Source: Singulisphaera sp. GP187 (GTDB taxonomy: Bacteria > Planctomycetota > Phycisphaerae > Phycisphaerales > SM1A02). Taken from it: a stretch of 64,000 nucleotides of DNA. Below the pieces are notes generated by a model, which saw only the letters and a program-made list of their open reading frames with translations, was not told the DNA's origin and searched no databases. Positions 48,965-61,156 of the stretch are shown piece by piece. The position numbers and the translations under genes were made by a program. Each line of letters starts with the position of its first letter. The first letter of the stretch is position 1. Where the stretch lies: contig CAMBWI010000004.1 in assembly GCA_945871445.1 (NCBI GenBank), forward strand, positions 1 to 64,000. Reading direction: 5' to 3'.

Positions 48965-50599
48965 ATGAAAGAGCATTCAATCTACGGTCAGAGTCAAATG
49001 AACCAGCAAACAGGATTGCGTTTATTGCTGATTGGGCTGGCTATTTCTACATCCTTTCATTTTTTAGAGAAGGCCGACGCACGACTTCCACAAACCCTTC
49101 TCGACACATTTTTGCCTTTCCCTCAAGGTGCTGTTGGCGATAGTTTCGGGAGTGCAATTGCAGTGAGTGGGGAAAATGTTGCTGTAGGCATACCTGGATT
49201 TGATTCAGGGAATATCCAAGATGTAGGTGCTGTTCAAGTTTATATTGGAACTCTAATACCAGGTTTTTATAATTGTTCTCAAACCCTTAAAACCACAGGA
49301 GCGCTTGTTTCTGTGGCAGCTTCGGATGGCTGCGGGTCTTCTGTAGCAATTTCGCCAAACTGGATTGCGGCAGGTGCTCCGAATTGGGATACATCTGTAC
49401 TGCCAATAAAGTATAATTGTGGAGCTGTTTTTGTTTGGAACAGAGAACCTCTCCCACCAAATAGTTGGAACGCAGTTCCAATTACAGTGCTGCATCAAAA
49501 TCCATTTGAACAGGATAGATTTGGAACTAGTGTTACATTGCATGAAGACGTAAATGGTGTAATTCTGGCCGTTGGTACACCAACAGATGGTTTGGGTAAT
49601 GGCAATACGTCAGGTGCCTACGTCAATCGTGGGTCAGTCAGTTTATATAAATATAACAATCAGACCCTTGAGTGGGAGCAAAATGGTTTTATTCCTGCAT
49701 TCCCAATTTCTCAACAGACAAATCTAAATATGGCGAATGGATTTTTCGGAGTTTCCATAGCAATATTTGGTGACTATATGGTGATAGGAGCTCACAGGCA
49801 GTCTGTGACAAAGTCGAGGCAAGGAACCGCTTTTGTGTTCAAGCGTGGTGGTGTATTTGTTCCTCAGAATCCAGACAATCAAAACCAACTTTGGGGAGAG
49901 TGGAAGTTTGTTCAGAGACTCGTTTCACAAAATCCGAAAATTGACGATCAGTTCGGTTGGGTCGTGGGTATTACTCCATGGAACATTATTGTTGGAGCGC
50001 CAGCTGGGATTGCTCCTGAGTCAATAAACGAAATCGGTTCTGCATCGATTTGGCGACTTGACCCTTTGGATCTAATCGAACCCGCAAAGGATCCGTCGAC
50101 ATTTTCTGATGGGTTTCCTGGTGACCAGTTTGGTTATTCGGTTCTCATTGAGTCGGCAACAGTTCAAATAGGCGCAGTGGGATTTGATACACCTTCTAAC
50201 CAAAACACAGGATGTGTCTATCAATTCAAGAGGTTCAGCACAGCATGCAGTTTATGGACCCAAGAAACTCCAATTTTGCCTCCACCAAGTGCAAACATTG
50301 CAAATTCTCGCTTTGGAACTTCACTTGCACTTGCTACTAATTGTATTCTTGTTTCATCTTTGCATGGCGCAAATCAAGTTCCTGACCAAGGAGTGGTTTT
50401 CTCCTTTATGATTCCTCAACCACCAGAACCGTGCGAAACCGATTTTAACGGGGATGGTGGAACTGATGGCGAAGACCTCTTGTTATTGCTATCGCATTGG
50501 GGTGGGCCTGGCGGCGATGTGAATGGTGATGGAACCACGAATGGTGCTGATTTGACATATGCCTTTCACATATGGGGACCCTGCGTCTGCGGTGATTGA
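48965..50599 (+). CDS. FG-GAP beta-propeller protein with dockerin-like C-terminus
   Basis: A 544-residue exported protein. A signal peptide (~residues 13-35, LLLIGLAISTSFHFLEKADA) is followed by about seven FG-GAP repeats (for example DSFGSAIAVSGENVAVGIPG, DRFGTSVTL, DQFGWVVGITPWNIIVGAPAG, DQFGYSVLI), consistent with a seven-bladed propeller. The C-terminus has two dockerin-type calcium loops, DFNGDGGTDGED and DVNGDGTTNGAD. Codon use is AT-richer than its neighbours. ATG 48965 or ATG 49001 could start it. Probably a secreted or surface-bound protein; binding target unknown. Confidence 0.8.
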   Translation: MKEHSIYGQSQMNQQTGLRLLLIGLAISTSFHFLEKADARLPQTLLDTFLPFPQGAVGDSFGSAIAVSGENVAVGIPGFDSGNIQDVGAVQVYIGTLIPGFYNCSQTLKTTGALVSVAASDGCGSSVAISPNWIAAGAPNWDTSVLPIKYNCGAVFVWNREPLPPNSWNAVPITVLHQNPFEQDRFGTSVTLHEDVNGVILAVGTPTDGLGNGNTSGAYVNRGSVSLYKYNNQTLEWEQNGFIPAFPISQQTNLNMANGFFGVSIAIFGDYMVIGAHRQSVTKSRQGTAFVFKRGGVFVPQNPDNQNQLWGEWKFVQRLVSQNPKIDDQFGWVVGITPWNIIVGAPAGIAPESINEIGSASIWRLDPLDLIEPAKDPSTFSDGFPGDQFGYSVLIESATVQIGAVGFDTPSNQNTGCVYQFKRFSTACSLWTQETPILPPPSANIANSRFGTSLALATNCILVSSLHGANQVPDQGVVFSFMIPQPPEPCETDFNGDGGTDGEDLLLLLSHWGGPGGDVNGDGTTNGADLTYAFHIWGPCVCGD

Positions 50600-50641: not shown

Positions 50642-50926
50642 ATGCAAATCTCTGAATTTCAAACATTCATTCGATCTCGCTATGACGAGACTGATCGTGC
50701 GAGAGGACCTTCCAAAACATTTGTGTGGCTTGCTGAGGAATTTGGCGAACTAGCACACGCAATTGGCAAGCACGATCGAGGCGATGGGGATCCTGCCAAT
50801 TTGCGCGAAGAATTTGCTGATTGCTTGGCTTGGATGTGCACGCTTGCAAACATTTGCGATGTCGACCTCGAACAAGCGATTCGTGAAAAATATATAAAAG
50901 ATGGCGGGCCGAAAGGGACGAAATGA
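50642..50926 (+). CDS. MazG-like nucleotide pyrophosphohydrolase
   Basis: A 94-residue all-alpha NTP pyrophosphatase. The metal-binding pattern EExxE (Glu32, Glu33, Glu36 in LAEEFGELAHAI) and ExxD (Glu57, Asp60 in REEFADCLAW) is complete. It probably cleans up non-canonical nucleotides; the substrate is unknown. It overlaps the HIT gene by four bases. Confidence 0.85.
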   Translation: MQISEFQTFIRSRYDETDRARGPSKTFVWLAEEFGELAHAIGKHDRGDGDPANLREEFADCLAWMCTLANICDVDLEQAIREKYIKDGGPKGTK

Positions 50927-51381
50927 CTTCTACCTGCGGCGTATGCAAAATCCACACAAGCGAATTGCTCGATGAACTTGTCGCATGGGAAAGTGATCGT
51001 TGGATTCTTCGGCATCACCCTACGCCAGCTCCATTGGTTGGTTGGTTTCTACTGGACACGAGACGACACGTTGCCAGTGCCGCGGACTTTGATGCACTTG
51101 AAGAAGCGGAATTTGCGCAAATTCTTGGTTCCGCGATGCGTGCGATTCGCAGTGTGATTGCTGTGCCTCGTGTCTATATAATTCTCTTCGGCGAAGGTGC
51201 GCAGCATGTTCATGCGCATCTCATTCCGCGTGATCCTTCGCATACGGGGACTTCAGCGTGGGAAATTGCAGATTGGTACAGAGCAGTTGAATCTGGAAAG
51301 CGCCCCGCAGCGCAACCCGTAGAAATCGCGGAGGCAGTGCAACGAGTTCGGGAAGAAATGCGAAGAACGGTCAAGATCTGA
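50923..51381 (+). CDS. HIT-family nucleotide hydrolase/transferase
   Basis: A 152-residue protein with the HxHxH catalytic motif (His95, His97, His99 in EGAQHVHAHLIPRDP). HIT enzymes cleave or transfer nucleotide phosphates. Cys5 and Cys8 near the N-terminus may bind zinc. Paired by ATGA overlap with the MazG-like gene, which suggests joint nucleotide housekeeping. Convergent with the HI0933 gene, overlapping its 3' end by 11 bases. Confidence 0.82.
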   Translation: MTSTCGVCKIHTSELLDELVAWESDRWILRHHPTPAPLVGWFLLDTRRHVASAADFDALEEAEFAQILGSAMRAIRSVIAVPRVYIILFGEGAQHVHAHLIPRDPSHTGTSAWEIADWYRAVESGKRPAAQPVEIAEAVQRVREEMRRTVKI

Positions 51382-52684
51382 TAGCAGAGTCTGCGTTTGC
51401 AGTGTGAGCTGCTGCAGTCCCTGCAACAAATCCGCTTGCCCAAGCCCACTGAAAACTGAATCCTCCGATTCGTCCGTCGACATCGAGCATCTCGCCACAA
51501 AGAAAAAGTCCTGGACATTTCAGGCTCTCAAGTCGGTCGATATTCAGTTCTGCAAGAGGCACTCCGCCTGCAGTGGTTTCTGCGGCAGTGAAGCCACGCG
51601 TCCCATTTGGAATGACTTCGCACGCGGTCAAAATTTGCACGAGCGAACTTCGTCGTTCACGGGTTAATTGTTGCACTCCGCTTGCTGGATCGACTGTGGC
51701 TTGCAGACACGCTGCGCGCAGAAATCTTTCGGGAAGTTTTCCTTTCAGAAAAGACAAAACGCTTTGACCTTTCGTCTGCACAAATTCCTGCTCGAGAGAT
51801 TCGCTTCGCAATCCTGGCATCCAATTGATTCGCAGACGTGCGTTGGGATCCACATCCAAAAGATGAAGCCAGTGTCGACTGACATCGAGAACTGCTGGTC
51901 CAGAGAGACCGAAATGTGCGCAGAGCACGGCTCCACAAACTGGAGGAATTGGCTTTCCTGCACTACTTCGGGCTTGAGCGCCATCAGCACGAATCGCTGT
52001 CAATTCTGCAGGAAGCGCAAGTCCGCTGAGTGTTGTCAACCAATGGTCGCTTGGCAGTGTGAGCGGCACGAGCGCAGGGACGATGAGTTGCGTGACAGAA
52101 TGACCAAGCGAACGAGCAATTGTAAATCCGTGACCATCCGAACCAGATTTCGGAAGGCTCATACCTCCCATGCAAAGTATGACAGTTCGTGCGTGCATGC
52201 ACTCTTCGCCGAAGTGAATCTCAAACCCGTTTTCAACTTGTGCAATACTTTCAACTCGCAGAGGGTGAAGGATAGTTACGCCGGCCGAATGTGCGGCAGA
52301 GACGAGCGCATCGAGCACACTTCGGGCCTTATCAGTTGTTGGAAAAAGTTTTCCAGTTTCTTCGCGCTTGAGTTGAACTCCACATTCTGCGAAGAATTCG
52401 ATTGTTGATTCGACTGGATATCTTCGCAGAATTCTGCGGATCAACTCTGGTGAGCCACCTGAATAGTCCCGTTCATCAACTGCGTGATGGGTGACATTGC
52501 ATCTGCCTCCACCAGCAACAAGAATCTTCGCGCCGAGTGTACGAGCGCTGTCGATTGCAACAACTTTGAGTGCGGGCCCTTCACGCGCTGCCCAAATTGC
52601 AGCGAAAAGCCCCGCCGCACCTGCGCCAATGATTGCAATGTCTGCGGAGGGGTGAGTGGGAATGTCAGGGCTCGAATTGTTCAC
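51371..52684 (-). CDS. HI0933-family flavoprotein (NAD(P)/FAD-dependent oxidoreductase)
   Basis: A 437-residue flavoprotein. The dinucleotide-binding motif is IAIIGAGAAGLFAAIWAARE, then ILVAGGGRCNVTH and EETGKLFPTTDKA, all typical of the HI0933/YhiN family (also BaiN). The reaction is uncertain. Last gene of the recG-ABC-M14 unit; its 5' end overlaps the M14 gene by four bases. Confidence 0.85.
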   Translation of the reverse strand: MNNSSPDIPTHPSADIAIIGAGAAGLFAAIWAAREGPALKVVAIDSARTLGAKILVAGGGRCNVTHHAVDERDYSGGSPELIRRILRRYPVESTIEFFAECGVQLKREETGKLFPTTDKARSVLDALVSAAHSAGVTILHPLRVESIAQVENGFEIHFGEECMHARTVILCMGGMSLPKSGSDGHGFTIARSLGHSVTQLIVPALVPLTLPSDHWLTTLSGLALPAELTAIRADGAQARSSAGKPIPPVCGAVLCAHFGLSGPAVLDVSRHWLHLLDVDPNARLRINWMPGLRSESLEQEFVQTKGQSVLSFLKGKLPERFLRAACLQATVDPASGVQQLTRERRSSLVQILTACEVIPNGTRGFTAAETTAGGVPLAELNIDRLESLKCPGLFLCGEMLDVDGRIGGFSFQWAWASGFVAGTAAAHTANADSAIRS

Positions 52685-54435
52685 GGCTTCGCAGAAAGAG
52701 TGAAGCTCTCCTCGATGTCACGGAATTTTTCGCCGCTGTACTTCACGCGCAATGAAGCGCCGGTTATTCCTTTTACGATGAATCGAAATTTTGCCGTTGA
52801 TAATCCAGCGATTCCTTCATCGACTTGAAGTTCTTGAGGATTGAATCGGACAGCTTCGAAGGTGGTTCCAAGTCGTTGTGGCATTGGGCCAGCAGAGACA
52901 ACAGTGATGTTTGCGCCGTCGAGAGTCAATCGATCTGGCATTCCGATCTGATTCTTGATCGCTCGCAAAGTGCGAGTTGGAATACGCCGATCGTTGGCGA
53001 TTTCGATTGTGATCATCCAAAGACCGTCGCTCATCTGTTGAATGAGCATCGGGTGGAAATGCAGGAGTGGCATTTGCTCTGCATGAAAAGCAGTAAAGGC
53101 GAAGTTGCGATGCGCTTCTTCTTCCAGCATAAATGGCGGAGGAATCCTACTTGACCATTTATTCCCACCACCGACCAAGACCGTTCCATACTCTGGATGT
53201 TTCAATTCTTTCCAGTCAGTTGTTGTTTGCCCAAAGAGCAATCGATCACGCCAACGCGTCATCTGTTCTGGAGAAGGATCGGATCCATTTTGCAGAATTC
53301 TTTTGTCTGACCAGAGTTCATTGGTGAAGGTGATCACGCCAAGCGATTCAGCAAGCCAATTCACAAAGCCACCATGGACGGTGTAGAGATCCTGATAAAT
53401 GACCATTGAACGATAGAAGGGGAGCATCTCTACTCCGGCATTCGCAATCGCGTCATATGTCGCACGATCAGAGCCGACATATTCCCCTTCGCGATAATTC
53501 GCGCCTGGTCCGCGCAGAATCATTCCGCCAGCATTGTGATAACTCTGACCTGCAGCGATATTGGGATGATTGAGAATCCACTGCGCAATAGCCTTTGTTT
53601 CAGGGAAACAAAGTGGAAAATCGCCTGCGCCGCCTTGCACATGTTCTGGCTGCCAGTCCGCTGGCCAATTCCGATTCATGTCATAGCCGCCGGGTCCATC
53701 TTCATTGACTCGGCCGTCTCCATCGTTGTCTATACCTTCGCTTCCAGCCATCGACCAATCGCCATATTCCATCGTTCCGTCGGGACGGAGTTCTGTCGAT
53801 ACTCGTTCGAGAATGCGCGGGTCGCGAGCATTGCGACGATGCGAACCTTTGGAATCTATGCGCCACATCTGTCCGATGGAACCGTCGCCGTCAAGATCAT
53901 CCGGTCCATCTTCATCGCAGACTCCATCGCGATCATCATCCGTGGGTTGCATTCCTGTTCGCGACGAGTGCGAACTATTTTGTTGATTGAACCAGTTCGC
54001 ACGTCCATCGGGATTGACTGATGGAACAAAATAGAAAGCGCATCGATCGACGAGTTTGGTCAAAGCTGGGACTTTTCCAAATGCTTTGCAGAGGTATTCA
54101 ATCGAATACATGACTGTTTCTGTCGATTGGACTTCATTTCCATGGATGTTGCCATCGATCCACATCGCAGGCTTGGATGTGTCAGGTCCAGTCGCAGGAT
54201 TATTGAGCGTGATGATCATTAGTGGTCGATTCTGCGATGATCTGCCAATTTCCTTCATTGTGAGCAAATTTGGATAGGCCAACACCAAATCATTCGCCAT
54301 TTTTAAAACATCTGGATAGTCATAAAAACGATTCCAAGCGATATCAACTTTGCTAGGCAATTGCTGTTGACTCCATGTGGCAGAAGTCGGAATCACCAAT
54401 GCAAGAATTGTCAAGAGCAATCTCGTTCGATTCAT
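52681..54435 (-). CDS. M14-family metallocarboxypeptidase, active-site complete
   Basis: A 584-residue exported zinc peptidase. A signal peptide (~1-22) is followed by the M14 domain: zinc ligands His and Glu in WIDGNIHGNEVQSTE, the third ligand His in AAGQSYHNAGG, and the catalytic Glu in ITFTNELWSD. Asp-rich calcium-like inserts (DDDRDGVCDEDGPDD, DGDGRVNEDGPGG) interrupt the domain. The C-terminal ~150 residues are probably beta-sandwich. Likely cleaves peptides or peptidoglycan-type substrates outside the cytoplasm. Overlaps its paralogue by four bases. Confidence 0.85.
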   Translation of the reverse strand: MNRTRLLLTILALVIPTSATWSQQQLPSKVDIAWNRFYDYPDVLKMANDLVLAYPNLLTMKEIGRSSQNRPLMIITLNNPATGPDTSKPAMWIDGNIHGNEVQSTETVMYSIEYLCKAFGKVPALTKLVDRCAFYFVPSVNPDGRANWFNQQNSSHSSRTGMQPTDDDRDGVCDEDGPDDLDGDGSIGQMWRIDSKGSHRRNARDPRILERVSTELRPDGTMEYGDWSMAGSEGIDNDGDGRVNEDGPGGYDMNRNWPADWQPEHVQGGAGDFPLCFPETKAIAQWILNHPNIAAGQSYHNAGGMILRGPGANYREGEYVGSDRATYDAIANAGVEMLPFYRSMVIYQDLYTVHGGFVNWLAESLGVITFTNELWSDKRILQNGSDPSPEQMTRWRDRLLFGQTTTDWKELKHPEYGTVLVGGGNKWSSRIPPPFMLEEEAHRNFAFTAFHAEQMPLLHFHPMLIQQMSDGLWMITIEIANDRRIPTRTLRAIKNQIGMPDRLTLDGANITVVSAGPMPQRLGTTFEAVRFNPQELQVDEGIAGLSTAKFRFIVKGITGASLRVKYSGEKFRDIEESFTLSAKP

Positions 54436-56237
54436 GGGATGACCTCCGTTGGTAGCGTGACTTTTTCACCAGTGATTGATGCTCGATAGGTTCCGTTTGG
54501 TTTCCATGTCGCATCAAGAATAATTGGATCATCTGATGGAGACTGAACAAGCCAACGAAACGATTTTCGACCGCCTACTCCTGTCAGTCCATCGATAATG
54601 GTCACGCGTTGGCCAGAGAGGATTCGATCCTTTGGTGTCGAAAGTCCAAGGATGATTGGTTCTGGCTGACGATTTGTTTTGCCCATTGCTGTCGTTGTTG
54701 GAAGCCAGCCATCATTCACAAGTTCCATTTCGATTTCATAAATTCCAGGTGCAACCATTTTTGAAGTCAGGTTGCGAATCGAAATTTTTGCTTGGCGCTT
54801 CGCAAGTTCGCTCAGAAATCCAGCAACAGCATCTGCGAGCTTCGGGATTTCGCTCGGCGGCGGATCCGTTCGAAAACGACTACGAAAGCCTCCAATTTCG
54901 ACTGGTCCAAGAGTTGGATGATTGAAAGGTGTCCACGCAATAAATCCGCGTCCTGCTTGATCGCGGTCGTTCCAAGCAAGCCATCCAGCAGATTCTTCGT
55001 CGGCAGGTTTCTCTGGAGATTTGGTGGGAGGTGCATCGCTAACTGGTGCGTCGGCAACTGGCGCAGCTGCAACTGGCGCAGCTGCAACTGGCGCCGTGAC
55101 AACTGGCGTCGTGACAACTGGCGCCGTGACAACTGGCGTCGTGACAACTGGCGTCGTGACAACTGGCGCAGCTGCAACTGGCGATGCATCTGGTCGTCCC
55201 CAGGCTTGCGTTGCAAATGTCGGAATGCCTCGATGCGCATAAAGCCACAGCGCAAATGATCCAGATGGATCGCATTCAGTAGTGCGCGCTTGTCCAGAAA
55301 GTTCGCGCCACTTGCTTCCCATTTCTTCCCAAGTTGCGCTGTCGCCAGAATCCAACGCAAGTGGAGTTTTGCCAGTGATATCTTTTGCCTTTGAATCTGG
55401 AGTCTTGACCAAATTATCCCAGCGTCCAATCACAAGTGCGCCGACTATTCGTGGATGTTCAAATACGAATTTAACGAGTGCCTGCGATTCGGGTTCGCTC
55501 AATTGAAAATTGCCTGCATTGGGCGAAAATTCTGGCCAACGGTGCGGAAAATTGCGGTCGATATCAACGCCTCCAATGTCATCTTCCGCAACAAGCCCGT
55601 CGCGATCTGAGTCCAATCCTTCTGTGTACAGCGTGTAAATAGCTCGCTGATCTTTCGTGGCGTCTGGAGTTCGCAAAAGTCGAGGATCGCTTGGATCTGC
55701 AAGATGCGTCGGAGGATCATTCGCCGGCAGCTGAAGCCTGCGCATCATTGTGATTGCTCCATCACCGTTTATATCTTTGGCAGGATCTTCATCAATGCGT
55801 CCATCACGATCTTCGTCAACGGGTCTTGTGTTGCGATTTGCTCTTCCATCTGCGTTCATAAACGTCTCGAGATATGAATCCGGATTGGCGCAGGGGATGA
55901 CATAAAAAGTATTCTTCTGGAGAATCTCAGGTGTTTCAAGCAGTTTTTTGACTGCTGCAACTGCGATTGCGACCGAACTTGGTCTGCTGCCATCAAGACC
56001 GCTGACAAGCAAGATGGCTGGTTTCTTTTCTGCATCCGCAATACTGTCGCTGAGTTTGATCACTTCTATTGACTGGCCAGACCATGATTTTCCGATAGTG
56101 GTGATCGATGCACGAGCGCGGTTGTTGTCGACAATCGTTCGCACTTGCGCGATGGCATCACGCGGGGTGATGGACGATGCGATAGGAGGGTCTGCGACAA
56201 GTCCAAGCAAAAGAATTGCGAGCGGAATGATCGTCAT
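54432..56237 (-). CDS. M14-like pseudo-peptidase lacking zinc ligands
   Basis: A 601-residue exported paralogue of the downstream M14 enzyme, with the same Asp-rich inserts (DEDRDGRIDEDP, DRDGLVAEDD). Every catalytic residue seems lost: the HxxE position is GLDGSRPSS, the third His is in IGRWDNL, and the catalytic Glu is Gln (TQAWGRP). Residues ~350-399 are a Val-Thr-Pro/Ala-Pro repeat linker encoded by ten 15-base repeats. A C-terminal domain (~430-601) follows. It may act as a regulator or binding partner of the active enzyme; that is inference. Confidence 0.75.
   Translation of the reverse strand: MTIIPLAILLLGLVADPPIASSITPRDAIAQVRTIVDNNRARASITTIGKSWSGQSIEVIKLSDSIADAEKKPAILLVSGLDGSRPSSVAIAVAAVKKLLETPEILQKNTFYVIPCANPDSYLETFMNADGRANRNTRPVDEDRDGRIDEDPAKDINGDGAITMMRRLQLPANDPPTHLADPSDPRLLRTPDATKDQRAIYTLYTEGLDSDRDGLVAEDDIGGVDIDRNFPHRWPEFSPNAGNFQLSEPESQALVKFVFEHPRIVGALVIGRWDNLVKTPDSKAKDITGKTPLALDSGDSATWEEMGSKWRELSGQARTTECDPSGSFALWLYAHRGIPTFATQAWGRPDASPVAAAPVVTTPVVTTPVVTAPVVTTPVVTAPVAAAPVAAAPVADAPVSDAPPTKSPEKPADEESAGWLAWNDRDQAGRGFIAWTPFNHPTLGPVEIGGFRSRFRTDPPPSEIPKLADAVAGFLSELAKRQAKISIRNLTSKMVAPGIYEIEMELVNDGWLPTTTAMGKTNRQPEPIILGLSTPKDRILSGQRVTIIDGLTGVGGRKSFRWLVQSPSDDPIILDATWKPNGTYRASITGEKVTLPTEVIP
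55041..55190 (-). repeat. Ten 15-base tandem repeats in the pseudo-peptidase gene
   Basis: Ten consecutive units of pattern AACTGGCG(C/T)NG(C/T)... on the plus strand (55041-55190) encode five-residue units such as VVTTP, VVTAP and VAAAP on the minus strand. Copy number may vary between strains. Confidence 0.85.
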
Positions 56238-56240
56238 GAA

Positions 56241-56975
56241 TTACATCTCCGTTGAGAGCGTTGCGTTATCCATTGTGTACAAGCCAACGAGCCATTTTTC
56301 GACAACATATGGATCGATATGAAAAACACCTTCAAGTGTTCCAACACGAATAACATGCCGTTTCGAATTGTCCGCTGGCGTCGCAAGCTTCACCTCGATC
56401 GCGTCATATGGAGAAGGCGGAACTCCGATGCAGCAACCATCCCACTGATTCAGCATGACGAGGCATTCACTTGATTCTGTCACAATGAGAGGAAATGCTA
56501 TGTATCCAGAGATTCTGACATATCTGCCATTGAGCATTGCAATGCGTTGCGGAATCTCTTTCTCTCCAAGACGAGGGATGTATGTGTCCGATGCGCTCAT
56601 CAGCAATTCCCATGTCACTTCGTATGGACTTTCTTTTGTCCCTTTGCCTTGTATGACAAACTTTCCGTCTGCGATAATCGCCCCATCTTTTTCGACAAGT
56701 CTTCCTGGCCGAACCTTTGCATCTTTAATTATTTGGTCGAGTCCATTTGTAAAACTTCCAGGCGTTGGAGCTGTCGCAGGTCTGGATGCAGACAAAGGCA
56801 AAGTCAATTGATCAACCGGTGTGAGGGTTGGCGCAGTGACTGTTGCAACAGCAGGTGCGGAATTTGTAGAAATTGCAACTACTGGTGTCGGCGCGATCTC
56901 TTGCGATGGGATTAGAAAAAATGCAGCCAACCCTGCGCCAACAAGAATCAGAATTGTGATCCAAAATAATCTCAT
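56241..56975 (-). CDS. DUF3299 membrane-anchored protein
   Basis: A 244-residue protein with an N-terminal membrane helix, a Thr/Pro/Ala-rich linker (~30-75) and a DUF3299 domain (~140-235; YVRISGYIAFPLIV, WDGCCIGVPPSPYDAIEV). DUF3299 proteins commonly accompany MacB/YbbP-type ABC transporters; I recall such a set under zinc control in Vibrio, which should be checked. Four bases from the pseudo-peptidase and 26 from the permease on the same strand. Function unknown. Confidence 0.75.
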   Translation of the reverse strand: MRLFWITILILVGAGLAAFFLIPSQEIAPTPVVAISTNSAPAVATVTAPTLTPVDQLTLPLSASRPATAPTPGSFTNGLDQIIKDAKVRPGRLVEKDGAIIADGKFVIQGKGTKESPYEVTWELLMSASDTYIPRLGEKEIPQRIAMLNGRYVRISGYIAFPLIVTESSECLVMLNQWDGCCIGVPPSPYDAIEVKLATPADNSKRHVIRVGTLEGVFHIDPYVVEKWLVGLYTMDNATLSTEM

Positions 56976-57001
56976 AATTCATTTTTCGCAGGATGGGATG
57001 T

Positions 57002-58315
57002 TTATGCAATCGGTTTCAAATGTCGAGCAACAGGAGTGCGATACGACTTCACTGCGGGAATGATTCCTGCAAGAGCGGCGAGCACAATTGCGCTCGCCAT
57101 CACAACCGCCGCAGAGCGTAGATCGATTGTTCCCGCAACGGTAATTCCAATGCGTTGTGCCAGAATTGTGCTTGCGAGCGCACTTCCGCCGAAGGCAAGA
57201 ATTGCTCCCAGTATCGCACCAATCAAGCCAATCAGTGTGCTTTCTGTGATGGCAAGTGCAAAGACTCGCCACGCACTTGCGCCAAGAACTCGCAAGACAG
57301 CAACTTGACGGCGACGAAGTTCCATAGATGCAACCATCGCAAGCATGATGCTGATCGCACTCGAAACTAATACGACGACCGCCATTGCAAGGAAGAGCCA
57401 ATCAATATCGCCAACGATGGCCATCAAGCGTCCGATCTGCTGCGCGGGTTGGGCAACGGTGATCGCCATATCGCGCCGCAATCGGTCAAATTGCGCTGCG
57501 ATAGAGGCTGATGCGTCGCTTCCTGGTCGCGTTGGCAGTCGCAGGAGAATTCCAGTCACAAGTTTGTCCGCATCGGTCAGATCTTCGGGATTGACATGTT
57601 CGTGCTCATGTGCATGATCGTGATCGTGGTCGTGATCTTCTTCCTCTTCAGAGTGTGCACTTGCAAGTCGATCTTCCGCATGAATGATCCAAGTGCTTTG
57701 GAGATTTGTGAAGAGCGCTCGATCATGTGCGGAGCCGGTTGGTTTCAAAATGCCAACTACTTCGTATGGATGATCTGCATGCTCGTGTCCGCCTTCTCGG
57801 CTTGCACCAGTTCCGTGCGTAAACACGATCTTCTGTCCGACGCTCAGTCCATGTTCACTTGCCGCTTTTGATCCAGCGACGACTTGAAAATCCTCGGCAA
57901 ATCCTTGACCAAATGCATATTGAAATGGTTGTCCGCTGACGGGCTCGAAGTTGCTTAAAAACTCGGGAGTTGTCGCCATCACTGGGCTGCCGCGGAAAGA
58001 ATCGCCGAGTTGAGTTGGGATTGCCCAGAGCCAAGGAAAACTATTCTTGATCTCTTGGTACTTGGCCCACGCAATTGGATTTGCAGGGGCGTTGGCATAA
58101 AACAGTCCGTTGAGAACACTGACGAGGGGACTGGCATCAGCGCTGATTTGGAGATGAATATTTCCAGTGCCACGCCTGAAGGCTTGTGATGCAGCTTCGC
58201 GCAGAGACATCAACACCAACAGTAACGCCACCGCAATCGCAACCATGGCGACTGTGACCGAACTGGCCAGAAATCGCACGCGAAGGCTTCGAAGAACAAT
58301 GTTTATGTCGTTCAT
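57002..58315 (-). CDS. ABC transporter permease (FtsX/MacB type) with His-rich periplasmic loop
   Basis: A 437-residue permease with one N-terminal membrane helix (~15-37), a large periplasmic part (~40-300) and three C-terminal helices (~305-430), the FtsX/MacB layout. The periplasmic part has two His clusters, GGHEHADHP (residues 176-183) and a strong one at 221-240 (HSEEEEDHDHDHDHAHEHEH), so metal binding (zinc, nickel or copper) is plausible. It works with the ATPase whose 3' end overlaps by four bases. Confidence 0.82.
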   Translation of the reverse strand: MNDINIVLRSLRVRFLASSVTVAMVAIAVALLLVLMSLREAASQAFRRGTGNIHLQISADASPLVSVLNGLFYANAPANPIAWAKYQEIKNSFPWLWAIPTQLGDSFRGSPVMATTPEFLSNFEPVSGQPFQYAFGQGFAEDFQVVAGSKAASEHGLSVGQKIVFTHGTGASREGGHEHADHPYEVVGILKPTGSAHDRALFTNLQSTWIIHAEDRLASAHSEEEEDHDHDHDHAHEHEHVNPEDLTDADKLVTGILLRLPTRPGSDASASIAAQFDRLRRDMAITVAQPAQQIGRLMAIVGDIDWLFLAMAVVVLVSSAISIMLAMVASMELRRRQVAVLRVLGASAWRVFALAITESTLIGLIGAILGAILAFGGSALASTILAQRIGITVAGTIDLRSAAVVMASAIVLAALAGIIPAVKSYRTPVARHLKPIA

Positions 58316-59010
58316 CGGACTGCCTCCGTTTGCGCAAATTGCGAAACTTCGACAATTCTTGTGAACACTTCGCGCAGAGAAGGGTCGTGGCTTGTCACGA
58401 TGAGCGCACTGCCAGCAGCACGCGCAGCTTCCTGAATCAGATCAATCGCCACGCGTGCGTTGGCAGGATCGAGACTCGCAGTTGGTTCGTCAGCAAGCAC
58501 AACGCATGGTTCGCCCGCGACAGCACGCGCGACGGCGACGCGCTGTTGTTGTCCAACTGAAAGCATTTCGATCGGGGAATGTGGATCCGAGATTGCAAGT
58601 TTGTTGAGTGCGGATTCGGCTCGCTCACGCTGCTGCAGTGGCGTATATCCCGTCAACATCAACGCCATCATGACATTTTCCAAGGCTGTAAATCCTTGCA
58701 GCAAATGAAATGTTTGAAAGATCATCCCGATATTTTTCCCACGAAACAAATCGCGTTGTCCCCCTTGAAGTGCCAAAATATTTGTGCCGCGAATTCTGAT
58801 TTCTCCTGAAGAAGCATTTTCGATTCCTGCGATCAGGTGGAGCAATGTCGATTTGCCAGATCCAGATGACCCTGCAAGCAAAACTTGTTCTCCAGTTGCG
58901 ACTTGGAATGATGGAATGGAAAGTTGAAAGCCTCTGCGATAAGCAAACTGCAATCCAGAAATTTGGATTCCAGGATGTTCATCGCGATTTGGTGGGGATG
59001 CCTTTGACAT
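58312..59010 (-). CDS. ABC transporter ATP-binding protein
   Basis: A 232-residue ATPase of the LolD/MacB group. Walker A is AGSSGSGKSTLLHLIAG, the signature is MLSVGQQQRVAVARAV and Walker B is VVLADEPTASLDPAN. It is the partner of the His-rich permease and follows recG after 22 bases on the same strand. Confidence 0.93.
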   Translation of the reverse strand: MSKASPPNRDEHPGIQISGLQFAYRRGFQLSIPSFQVATGEQVLLAGSSGSGKSTLLHLIAGIENASSGEIRIRGTNILALQGGQRDLFRGKNIGMIFQTFHLLQGFTALENVMMALMLTGYTPLQQRERAESALNKLAISDPHSPIEMLSVGQQQRVAVARAVAGEPCVVLADEPTASLDPANARVAIDLIQEAARAAGSALIVTSHDPSLREVFTRIVEVSQFAQTEAVR

Positions 59011-59032: not shown

Positions 59033-61156
59033 TCACGCAATGTCGCTCAATCCAAGAGCTGAACCATAGAGTTGAAGAACTCGACATCGAAGCGCGAGAT
59101 CGCGCGTTTCAGTCAAGTCCCCACTTTGACCGATCCACGCTTCTGCATCGGACTTCGCATCTGTGAGCAACGAAAAATCTCGCGTCAAATCGGCAATGTG
59201 GAGCGGGGGAAGTCCCGATTGTCGTGCACCAAAGAATTCGCCGGGACCACGCAATTTCAAGTCCAGTTCTGCAATCTCAAATCCATCGGTGCTCTTTGCA
59301 ATCGCATCAAATCGGCCTTGGGCGATGTCGCTGGGAGGGTCGCCGATCAGCACGCAATACCCGGGCTTCCCGCCGCGACCGACTCGCCCCCGTAATTGAT
59401 GCAGTTGCGCAAGTCCAAACCGTTCTGCGTGTTCGATGACCATGACAGTTGCGTTTGGAACATCAACTCCGACTTCGATGATGATCGTCGAGACCAACAC
59501 ATCGATTCGTCCTTCTCGAAAGTCATCCATCACTTGATCACACTCGGCACTTTTCATTTGGCCGTGCAGTTGGCCAATGCGAGCCCCGCGCAATGGACCG
59601 TCCGCAAGACTTTTCGCATGTGATGCAACATCTTTCAGTCCAAGATCACTCTCTTGAATTGCGGGAACGACGACGAATGCCTGCTCGCCACGCTTGATGC
59701 GTGTGTTGAGCCATACATACACCTCAGGCGCACGGAGGTTTGGCATCACTCTGGTTGTTGGAGCAGTACGACCTGGCAGGAGTCCACGCAACGAACTGAC
59801 ATCAAGATCACCAAAGAAGGAAAGCGCGAGCGTTCGTGGAATTGGTGTGGCAGTCATCACAAGGGTGTGTGGAACGAGATTTGGAGTTGCACCCTTTGCA
59901 CGCAGTGCGGCACGTTGTTCAACTCCAAAGCGATGCTGCTCGTCGATGATCGTAATGGCCAAACTCTTGAATCGAATGTCATCTCCAAGTAACGCGTGTG
60001 TGCCGACGGCAAGATCGAAATCTCCAGATGCAAGTCCATTGACCACAATCGCGCGATCGGCGGTGCGCAAACTGCCAGTCAAACCAGCAACTCGAACTCG
60101 ACTGCCTTTGAGCATCTCTTCAACAGTCCTCAAGTGTTGTTCGGCAAGTATTTCCGTTGGTGCAAGCAGAACTGCTTGATGCCCATGAGCAATCGCAGTC
60201 AACATTGCATGCACGGCGACGGCGGTCTTGCCCGATCCAACATCGCCTTGCAGTAGTCGATTCATTGGAATCGTCTTCGCAAGGTCGGCAGAGATTTCTT
60301 TACACACTTGCCGCTGTGCATCGGTCAGCGCAAATGGAATACGTGCAAGGATTTTTTCCTCAATAGCGCCAGTCAGCGCAAGCGGCGGAGCTTTCATTGA
60401 ATAGCGCACCTGCCAGCGACGCATCGCCATCGCAAGTTGCAAACAGAGAAGTTCGTCGTATGCCAATCGCATTCTTCCCTGTTGCGCTTCGACCGCATCA
60501 TTTGGAGCGTGAACCATCCGATACGCATCGCGCAGCGACACAAGTCCACGACGAGCGATGATCTCTGGGCGAATCAGATCAACAACGGATTCGAGCGCAG
60601 GTTGTAAAACAGCGGTAAGAACTTTTTCGATTCTCGCTGTTGCTAATTCTTCAGTTGCCGAATAGATCGGACGCAATCGTCCCGCACGGACGGGGATTTG
60701 ATCATCTTCGCCAACAGGTTCCCAAAGTGGATTGACCATCTCTAAATATCCGCCGCGGACTTTCGCGCGACCTTTGGCAATCCCTTTTTGCCCTGGATGA
60801 ATCTTCCTCATCAACCAGGGAGCGTTGAACCAAACAAGTCGAATCGTGCCACTCTCGTCTGAGAGAATCGCTTCGATTCTTGGACGGCGTGATGGAACTT
60901 GACGCACCTTTTGGATTTCTCCGCGAACGGTGCGAGTCACGGATGCTTCAGCAAGTTCTGTTGCCTCTTTGGCCTCGGTGACAGCAGCCTCTGCAGCTTC
61001 GATTTCATATCGAATTGGAAGATGATTCAGCAAATCGCCAACGGTTCGCAAACCCAGATATGCGAATCGTGCGCCTATCTGAGATCCAACTCCCGCAAGC
61101 TGGACGATGGGAGCATCGAGAGCAATCTTTGTGGTTGGTTCTGCATCTAGACTCAC
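59033..61156 (-). CDS. recG: ATP-dependent DNA helicase RecG
   Basis: Branch-migrating helicase for replication-fork and recombination intermediates. 707 residues. A wedge-type OB domain is at ~60-160; Walker A is QGDVGSGKTAVAV, the DEAH-type box is IIDEQHRFGVEQ, and TATPIPRTLALSFFGDLDVS and ERFGLAQLHQLRGRVGRGG are family hallmarks. The start is GTG 61156 with a TATCGT box seven bases upstream that overlaps the xseA box. First gene of a long minus-strand unit. Confidence 0.95.
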   Translation of the reverse strand: MSLDAEPTTKIALDAPIVQLAGVGSQIGARFAYLGLRTVGDLLNHLPIRYEIEAAEAAVTEAKEATELAEASVTRTVRGEIQKVRQVPSRRPRIEAILSDESGTIRLVWFNAPWLMRKIHPGQKGIAKGRAKVRGGYLEMVNPLWEPVGEDDQIPVRAGRLRPIYSATEELATARIEKVLTAVLQPALESVVDLIRPEIIARRGLVSLRDAYRMVHAPNDAVEAQQGRMRLAYDELLCLQLAMAMRRWQVRYSMKAPPLALTGAIEEKILARIPFALTDAQRQVCKEISADLAKTIPMNRLLQGDVGSGKTAVAVHAMLTAIAHGHQAVLLAPTEILAEQHLRTVEEMLKGSRVRVAGLTGSLRTADRAIVVNGLASGDFDLAVGTHALLGDDIRFKSLAITIIDEQHRFGVEQRAALRAKGATPNLVPHTLVMTATPIPRTLALSFFGDLDVSSLRGLLPGRTAPTTRVMPNLRAPEVYVWLNTRIKRGEQAFVVVPAIQESDLGLKDVASHAKSLADGPLRGARIGQLHGQMKSAECDQVMDDFREGRIDVLVSTIIIEVGVDVPNATVMVIEHAERFGLAQLHQLRGRVGRGGKPGYCVLIGDPPSDIAQGRFDAIAKSTDGFEIAELDLKLRGPGEFFGARQSGLPPLHIADLTRDFSLLTDAKSDAEAWIGQSGDLTETRDLALRCRVLQLYGSALGLSDIA

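Follow-up and report, generated by a model that had tools for sequence, protein, structure and literature searches.

A conserved tandem of dead and live M14 proteins joined to a Zrg-like ABC core in a Phycisphaerales operon

The six-gene block and its M14 tandem

The DNA analyzed here, a 64,000-nucleotide stretch of contig CAMBWI010000004.1 (hereafter, the window), is part of an 82% complete genome whose nearest named relatives are metagenome-assembled genomes (MAGs), many of them lake-derived; several of these MAGs are labeled Phycisphaerales or Planctomycetota. Six genes on the minus strand, at positions 51371-59010, form a tight block. In order of transcription, they encode an ATP-binding cassette (ABC) ATPase of the LolD/MacB/FtsE type, like ZrgC or PA4064 (58312-59010; Pfam ABC_tran, 113.6 bits, together with gene order); a MacB/FtsX-type permease, like ZrgB or PA4065 (57002-58315; Pfam FtsX, 57.8 bits, and MacB_PCD, 46.8 bits); a DUF3299 protein with an N-terminal membrane anchor, like ZrgE or PA4066 (56241-56975; PF11736, 23.1 bits, cut-off 22); a secreted, catalytically dead M14 homolog with Ca-type DxDxDG inserts, here termed pM14 (54432-56237; Pfam Peptidase_M14, 64.9 bits); a secreted metallocarboxypeptidase of the active type, here termed M14 (52681-54435; Pfam Peptidase_M14, 153.5 bits); and an HI0933-like flavoprotein (51371-52684; Pfam HI0933_like, 241 bits). 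The successive spacings are -4, 26, 3, -4, and -4 bases. The initial annotation had described six same-strand genes after recG, separated by 26 bases or less or overlapping by four, and all of these open reading frames (ORFs) lie where it placed them; its family assignments agree with the Pfam and NCBIfam scores. The operon is modular in build, consisting of two older modules, namely the ATPase, permease, and DUF3299 genes (the trio) and pM14 with M14 (the pair), plus a passenger, the flavoprotein gene. We regard the conserved tandem of dead and live M14 as more valuable than any other result, including the idea of a metal function that is weighed further below.

An alignment of 103 live M14 and 89 dead pM14 homologs was inspected, and equivalence to carboxypeptidase A numbering was assigned by us from motifs. 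H98, E101, H300, and E373 of M14 (H69, E72, H196, and E270 of carboxypeptidase A) are invariant in 103/103 sequences, as are R159, N254, R255, and Y351 (R127, N144, R145, and Y248). At the positions of H69, E72, H196, and E270, the window pM14 has D, R, G, and Q, so that the zinc ligands and the catalytic Glu are gone; over all 89 pM14 sequences, D/E, H/R, and G/S occupy the ligand positions almost without exception, and P or Q stands in place of the catalytic Glu in most. The earlier description of an inactive M14-like protein followed by an active M14 was thus borne out, ligands and catalytic Glu being lost in the first and all kept in the second. Neither protein shows any variation at the Asp residues of its DxDxDG inserts. 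Most homologs have V or L at position 358 of M14, which corresponds to the specificity position (residue 255) of carboxypeptidase A, and this suggests a preference for hydrophobic C-terminal residues.

M14 has a signal peptide, and its matches are carboxypeptidases A, T, and D. The AlphaFold2 (AF2) model of pM14, with a predicted local distance difference test (pLDDT) score of 87, has a carboxypeptidase fold (carboxypeptidase T, Z 27.8 over 284 residues), except that its Pro/Val/Thr-rich linker, encoded on the minus strand by a 15-bp tandem repeat (55055-55183; TRF, 8.6 copies), was modeled at a pLDDT of only about 45-60. The length of this linker differs among relatives, and the repeat is possibly slippage-prone. 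With carboxypeptidases T, A, and D, the window M14 shares the fold and the full catalytic set, and pM14 shares the fold; the window M14 differs from them in its Ca-type DxDxDG inserts, which lie between substrate-binding residues, and in its strict tandem arrangement with a dead paralog.

The arrangement is indeed strict: pM14 was found immediately upstream of M14 at 105 of the 107 distinct M14 loci with sufficient upstream sequence, and the remaining two are explained by an artefact of the ORF boundary (L172) and by a contig break (L148). Stop and start codons overlap as ATGA or GTGA in most planctomycete loci, and one genome (G033; L126:9004-12711) carries a natural fusion, a single ORF of 1235 amino acids with the dead half first and the live half second. 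In a joint tree, pM14 and M14 were reciprocally monophyletic with a support of 100, and the internal branching is similar in both halves; as read from this tree, the history of the pair is one duplication followed by co-inheritance. The pair occurs in at least three phyla, namely Planctomycetota, Bacteroidota (Cyclobacteriaceae), and Gemmatimonadota; within Planctomycetota, it is found in Phycisphaerales and more widely, 47 of the 157 genera sampled across the phylum having a match. Either pM14 would have stood beside M14 since before the divergence of the phyla examined, or the two would have spread as a unit. Neighbors of the pair differ freely outside the window's family. In Bacteroidota, it is flanked by genes for a Na/H exchanger, a universal stress protein, a ferrochelatase, and, on the opposite strand, a major facilitator superfamily (MFS) transporter, which is probably lineage synteny without any functional clue.

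Active/inactive paralog pairs are known among M16B peptidases, in which the inactive member is needed for activity (PMC12731061). Like the M16B heterodimers (MPP alpha/beta, SPH2681/SPH2682, and TTHA1264/TTHA1265), M14 and pM14 are an active and an inactive paralog, adjacent as in the bacterial cases and co-inherited, and such conservation of a live and a dead protein side by side suggests that the two work as one enzyme. The M16B fold and family are, however, unrelated to M14, and a heteromer of M14 and pM14 is putative. Dead M14 domains under selection are also found in the M14 pseudopeptidases AEBP1, CPXM1/2, carboxypeptidase D (CPD) domain III, and Ecm14, but these are eukaryotic, and no bacterial pair of adjacent genes is among them. 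In CPD, as in the G033 fusion, a single chain holds both live and dead M14 domains.

The transporter trio and its join to the pair

By homology, the trio is shown to be a relative of the Zrg/PA4063-PA4066 metal-linked ABC core, minus the ZrgA partner. The zrg genes of Vibrio (zrgABCDE) are Zur-controlled and zinc-linked (PMC9817125, PMC9820375), and PA4063-66 of Pseudomonas aeruginosa is a Zur-controlled, MacB-like system that has been proposed to be a cobalt-pyochelin exporter (PMC11481552). The order ATPase-permease-DUF3299 is the same in these systems and in the window, and it recurs at two plasmid loci, one from P. aeruginosa and one from Phaeobacter, both of which also have DUF2796 (ZrgA); the Phaeobacter locus in addition adjoins a Fur-family gene. 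The best NCBIfam match of the ATPase is LolD, at 172 bits under a cut-off of 307.75. Homology of the permease is full length, profile alignment (hhalign) with the P. aeruginosa permease extending over 412 columns at an E of 7e-42; its conserved, periplasmic H167, D198, and H212 are common to all eight sequences compared, and an HxH at 177/179 is present in every planctomycete aligned. The stretch HDHDHDHAHEHEH accounts for its earlier description as His-rich.

The DUF3299 protein carries the motif WDGCCIGVPPxPYDAIEV. Its AF2 model was middling (pLDDT 64), and the sole significant Foldseek match was 4hsp, which is PA4066. In a VIA comparison, 4hsp reached a Z of 5.2, with other OB-fold-like chains about equal (Z about 5), so that PA4066 is singled out only by its E-value in Foldseek and by the sequence motif. 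A PDB profile search with planctomycete DUF3299 gave no match, the likeness to PA4066 being seen by fold only, and a DUF3299 sequence search in plasmids also gave none. Unlike Zrg and PA4063-PA4066, the window operon has no ZrgA/DUF2796, no Zur site was found, and an M14 pair lies downstream; its DUF3299 protein is membrane-anchored, with a WDGCCIG motif instead of the xGACIH type.

Three side observations concern genes of these kinds elsewhere. Many genomes have a second DUF3299 paralog without ABC genes (L193, L194, L195, L196, and L197), with an S9 peptidase gene coming after it in L195. On a 5.4-kb contig (L160; G002:C75), znuA and genes for an ABC ATPase and a cobW-family protein accompany a broken classical DUF3299 gene; this may be a zinc-related neighborhood of DUF3299 or a misbinned contig, and it was not relied on. 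A single reading frame at L223:7506-9101 joins a ZnuB-type permease (ABC-3) to the C-terminal domain of an iron-dependent repressor.

The join of trio and pair was surveyed in 151 genomes of the window's Phycisphaerales family, whose members are freshwater planctomycetes, and adjacency was tallied by us from coordinates. DUF3299 and the pair occurred together in 20 genera and were adjacent in 12 (g1, g2, g7, g16, g17, g18, g43, g44, g51, g56, g60, and g62), and gene order was unchanged in all 12, which represent more than one genomic context. Without an adjoining recG, g17, g44, g51, g56, and g62 still had everything from the ATPase through the flavoprotein gene, whereas g7 kept the trio and the pair without either recG or the flavoprotein gene; the junction between trio and pair persisted even where recG, xseA, and the 3' neighbor were gone. 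This provides an internal control, in that the equally tight recG junction is lost while the trio-pair junction stays. Because the modules are adjacent in 12 of 20 genera despite changed flanks, their grouping is not one of chance. The initial annotation had regarded freely varying neighbors among relatives as the mark of a chance grouping, and the survey divides on this point: neighbors are fixed in much of the family but vary freely outside it. On the permease tree, the linkage state changes four times, a pattern compatible with a single gain and subsequent losses or with two gains. Beyond the family, this DUF3299 is seldom found in the phylum, and in the genomes listed there, it is unlinked to the pair. 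In g51, a convergent gene for a heavy-metal P-type ATPase (HMA + E1-E2; L178:14381-16639) directly follows the six-gene block.

The flavoprotein and the flanking genes

The flavoprotein scored 374 bits with TIGR00275, well above the curated cut-off of 183.8, and it is a member of the HI0933/TIGR00275 flavoproteins, among which only its operon context is odd. We take RdsA/YhiN-type proteins to belong to the HI0933 family, and the window flavoprotein would be of this type. RdsA is the Escherichia coli 23S rRNA dihydrouridine synthase (PMC12501074). The gene is the last of the block in most linked genera but is not beside the pair in g7, and its product is probably a housekeeping passenger, co-transcribed and outside the mechanism.

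Upstream, recG (59033-61156, minus strand; Pfam) is a neighbor outside the conserved unit and ends 22 bp before the start of the ATPase gene; the latter start lies no more than about 60 bp from recG in the window's genus. The recG and xseA genes point away from each other, with 18 bp between them. Promoter and terminator scans gave no signal above chance, and no Rfam element was found near the operon, save one tRNA outside it. On the plus strand, a conserved ORF of 152 amino acids (50923-51381) has an HxHxH motif and is HIT-like by eye, without a Pfam match; it overlaps the flavoprotein gene tail-to-tail by 11 bp, a position kept in several genera. A secreted FG-GAP repeat protein with DxNxDG motifs close to its C-terminus is encoded at 48965-50599 (plus strand), and relatives have similar proteins near the operon.

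Proposed function and alternative explanations

We tentatively favor, without counting it as probable, a heteromeric periplasmic Zn-carboxypeptidase that is co-expressed with a metal-handling ABC core helping to keep it metallated. Only the enzyme half of this proposal is well supported, on the evidence of the tandem: M14 and pM14 would form a heteromer that removes hydrophobic residues from C-termini, in which pM14 would serve for structure, for gripping the substrate, or for gating, by analogy to the inactive alpha subunit of M16B peptidases. The weakest step is the one that involves the transporter. ATP-driven movement of the periplasmic domain of the ABC core, together with DUF3299, would shift a transition metal (or a molecule that binds one) or pass it on, and through co-expression the exported Zn enzyme, or the compartment around it, would stay metallated.

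Several observations weigh against the proposal. The His-rich loop of the permease is variable, and it is short or absent in several homologs. The zinc-binding protein ZrgA (DUF2796, PF10986) gave no match above cut-off in 61 genomes and none in the operon, for which reason we speak of a Zrg-like core rather than of a Zrg system. ZnuABC is present elsewhere in genomes of the window's genus, and a Fur-family protein is encoded away from the operon in 16 of 19 of them; the trio is therefore not the main or only zinc route. The role proposed for the P. aeruginosa homolog is export of cobalt-pyochelin, not metallation of an enzyme. Metal-responsive control of the operon is plausible by homology, but the search for an upstream Zur/Fur site that the initial annotation had called for found no Zur-like palindrome there: the E. 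coli-type Zur palindrome had no match in the window, and the Bacillus subtilis-type had three, which is chance level, one of them within the permease gene and none upstream of the operon (neither consensus may be the host's own). The metal function that had been hinted at from ABC plus DUF3299 is therefore reasonable as far as homology to the Zur-controlled Zrg/PA4063-PA4066 goes, whereas no sign of metal-responsive regulation was found. At the level of genera, both modules were present in 20, the trio only in five, the pair only in 11, and neither in nine, which is not a significant association (Fisher p 0.07), and the pair is found without the transporter in most pair-bearing Planctomycetota, in Cyclobacteriaceae, and in Gemmatimonadota. 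A single integrated unit is less credible given that each module is found without the other, even though their grouping within the family is not accidental.

The same independence makes it possible, and to be taken seriously, that trio and pair share only a promoter, the pair having been inserted once between the trio and the flavoprotein gene in an ancestor of the family, so that all are co-transcribed without acting on one another. The linked live M14s form a single clade, requiring one change on the tree; in g6, recG, the trio, the flavoprotein gene, and the 3' neighbor are all present and only the pair is absent; each module is common alone, and the neighbors of the pair are free to vary in other taxa. 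What a shared promoter explains less readily is the retention of the join in 12 genera despite the loss of other neighbors, five of them with a new upstream context, and always in the same order. A route for peptides, in which the MacB-type core moves a peptide or peptide-like metallophore that is trimmed in the periplasm by the M14 pair, would draw on the exopeptidase type of the M14 catalytic set and on the export of peptides and siderophores by MacB-type pumps, PA4063-66 being a proposed metallophore exporter (PMC11481552); we regard it as decidedly unlikely, as the operon has neither a precursor peptide gene nor a MacA or TolC partner, and in most taxa the pair operates without the core.

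Control of the FtsEX kind, in which the ABC core would gate the M14 pair as a cell-wall hydrolase cutting peptidoglycan peptides, is very improbable. The permease fold is FtsX-like, an ATPase accompanies it, and some M14 enzymes act on peptidoglycan; but M14 resembles carboxypeptidases A, T, and D, with equivalents of Arg127, Asn144, Arg145, and Tyr248, the PDB matches of the permease are LolF, YtrF, LolC, and MacB, and its scores with two FtsX models were 42.3 and 20.2 bits, under cut-offs of 250 and 225, so that it does not belong to FtsEX. Loss of the zinc ligands and the catalytic Glu might make pM14 a functionless, decaying duplicate, an idea ruled out by its conservation: its reading frame is open and of full length in all three phyla, its Asp loops and many other residues are invariant, it has a confident carboxypeptidase fold, and it stands beside M14 at essentially every locus.

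A stronger form of the favored proposal, which we consider unlikely, is that pM14/M14 represents a novel class of bacterial carboxypeptidase, an obligate heteromer of multi-phylum age, and that it is acted on directly, within this planctomycete family, by a type VII (MacB-like) ABC core without ZrgA, which would load zinc into it or gate it through the periplasmic metal site of the permease and DUF3299. If true, an ABC core would here drive the metallation or the gating of an exported metalloenzyme. The trio extends the Zrg/PA4063-66 family, in which importer and exporter roles are disputed, to a ZrgA-less setting, and it bears on the roles that permease and DUF3299 have on their own. In the literature searched, active/inactive M14 pairs were found inside eukaryotic proteins only, and the bacterial two-gene version, conserved in three phyla, offers a clean and testable case of a pseudoenzyme retained as the partner of an enzyme.

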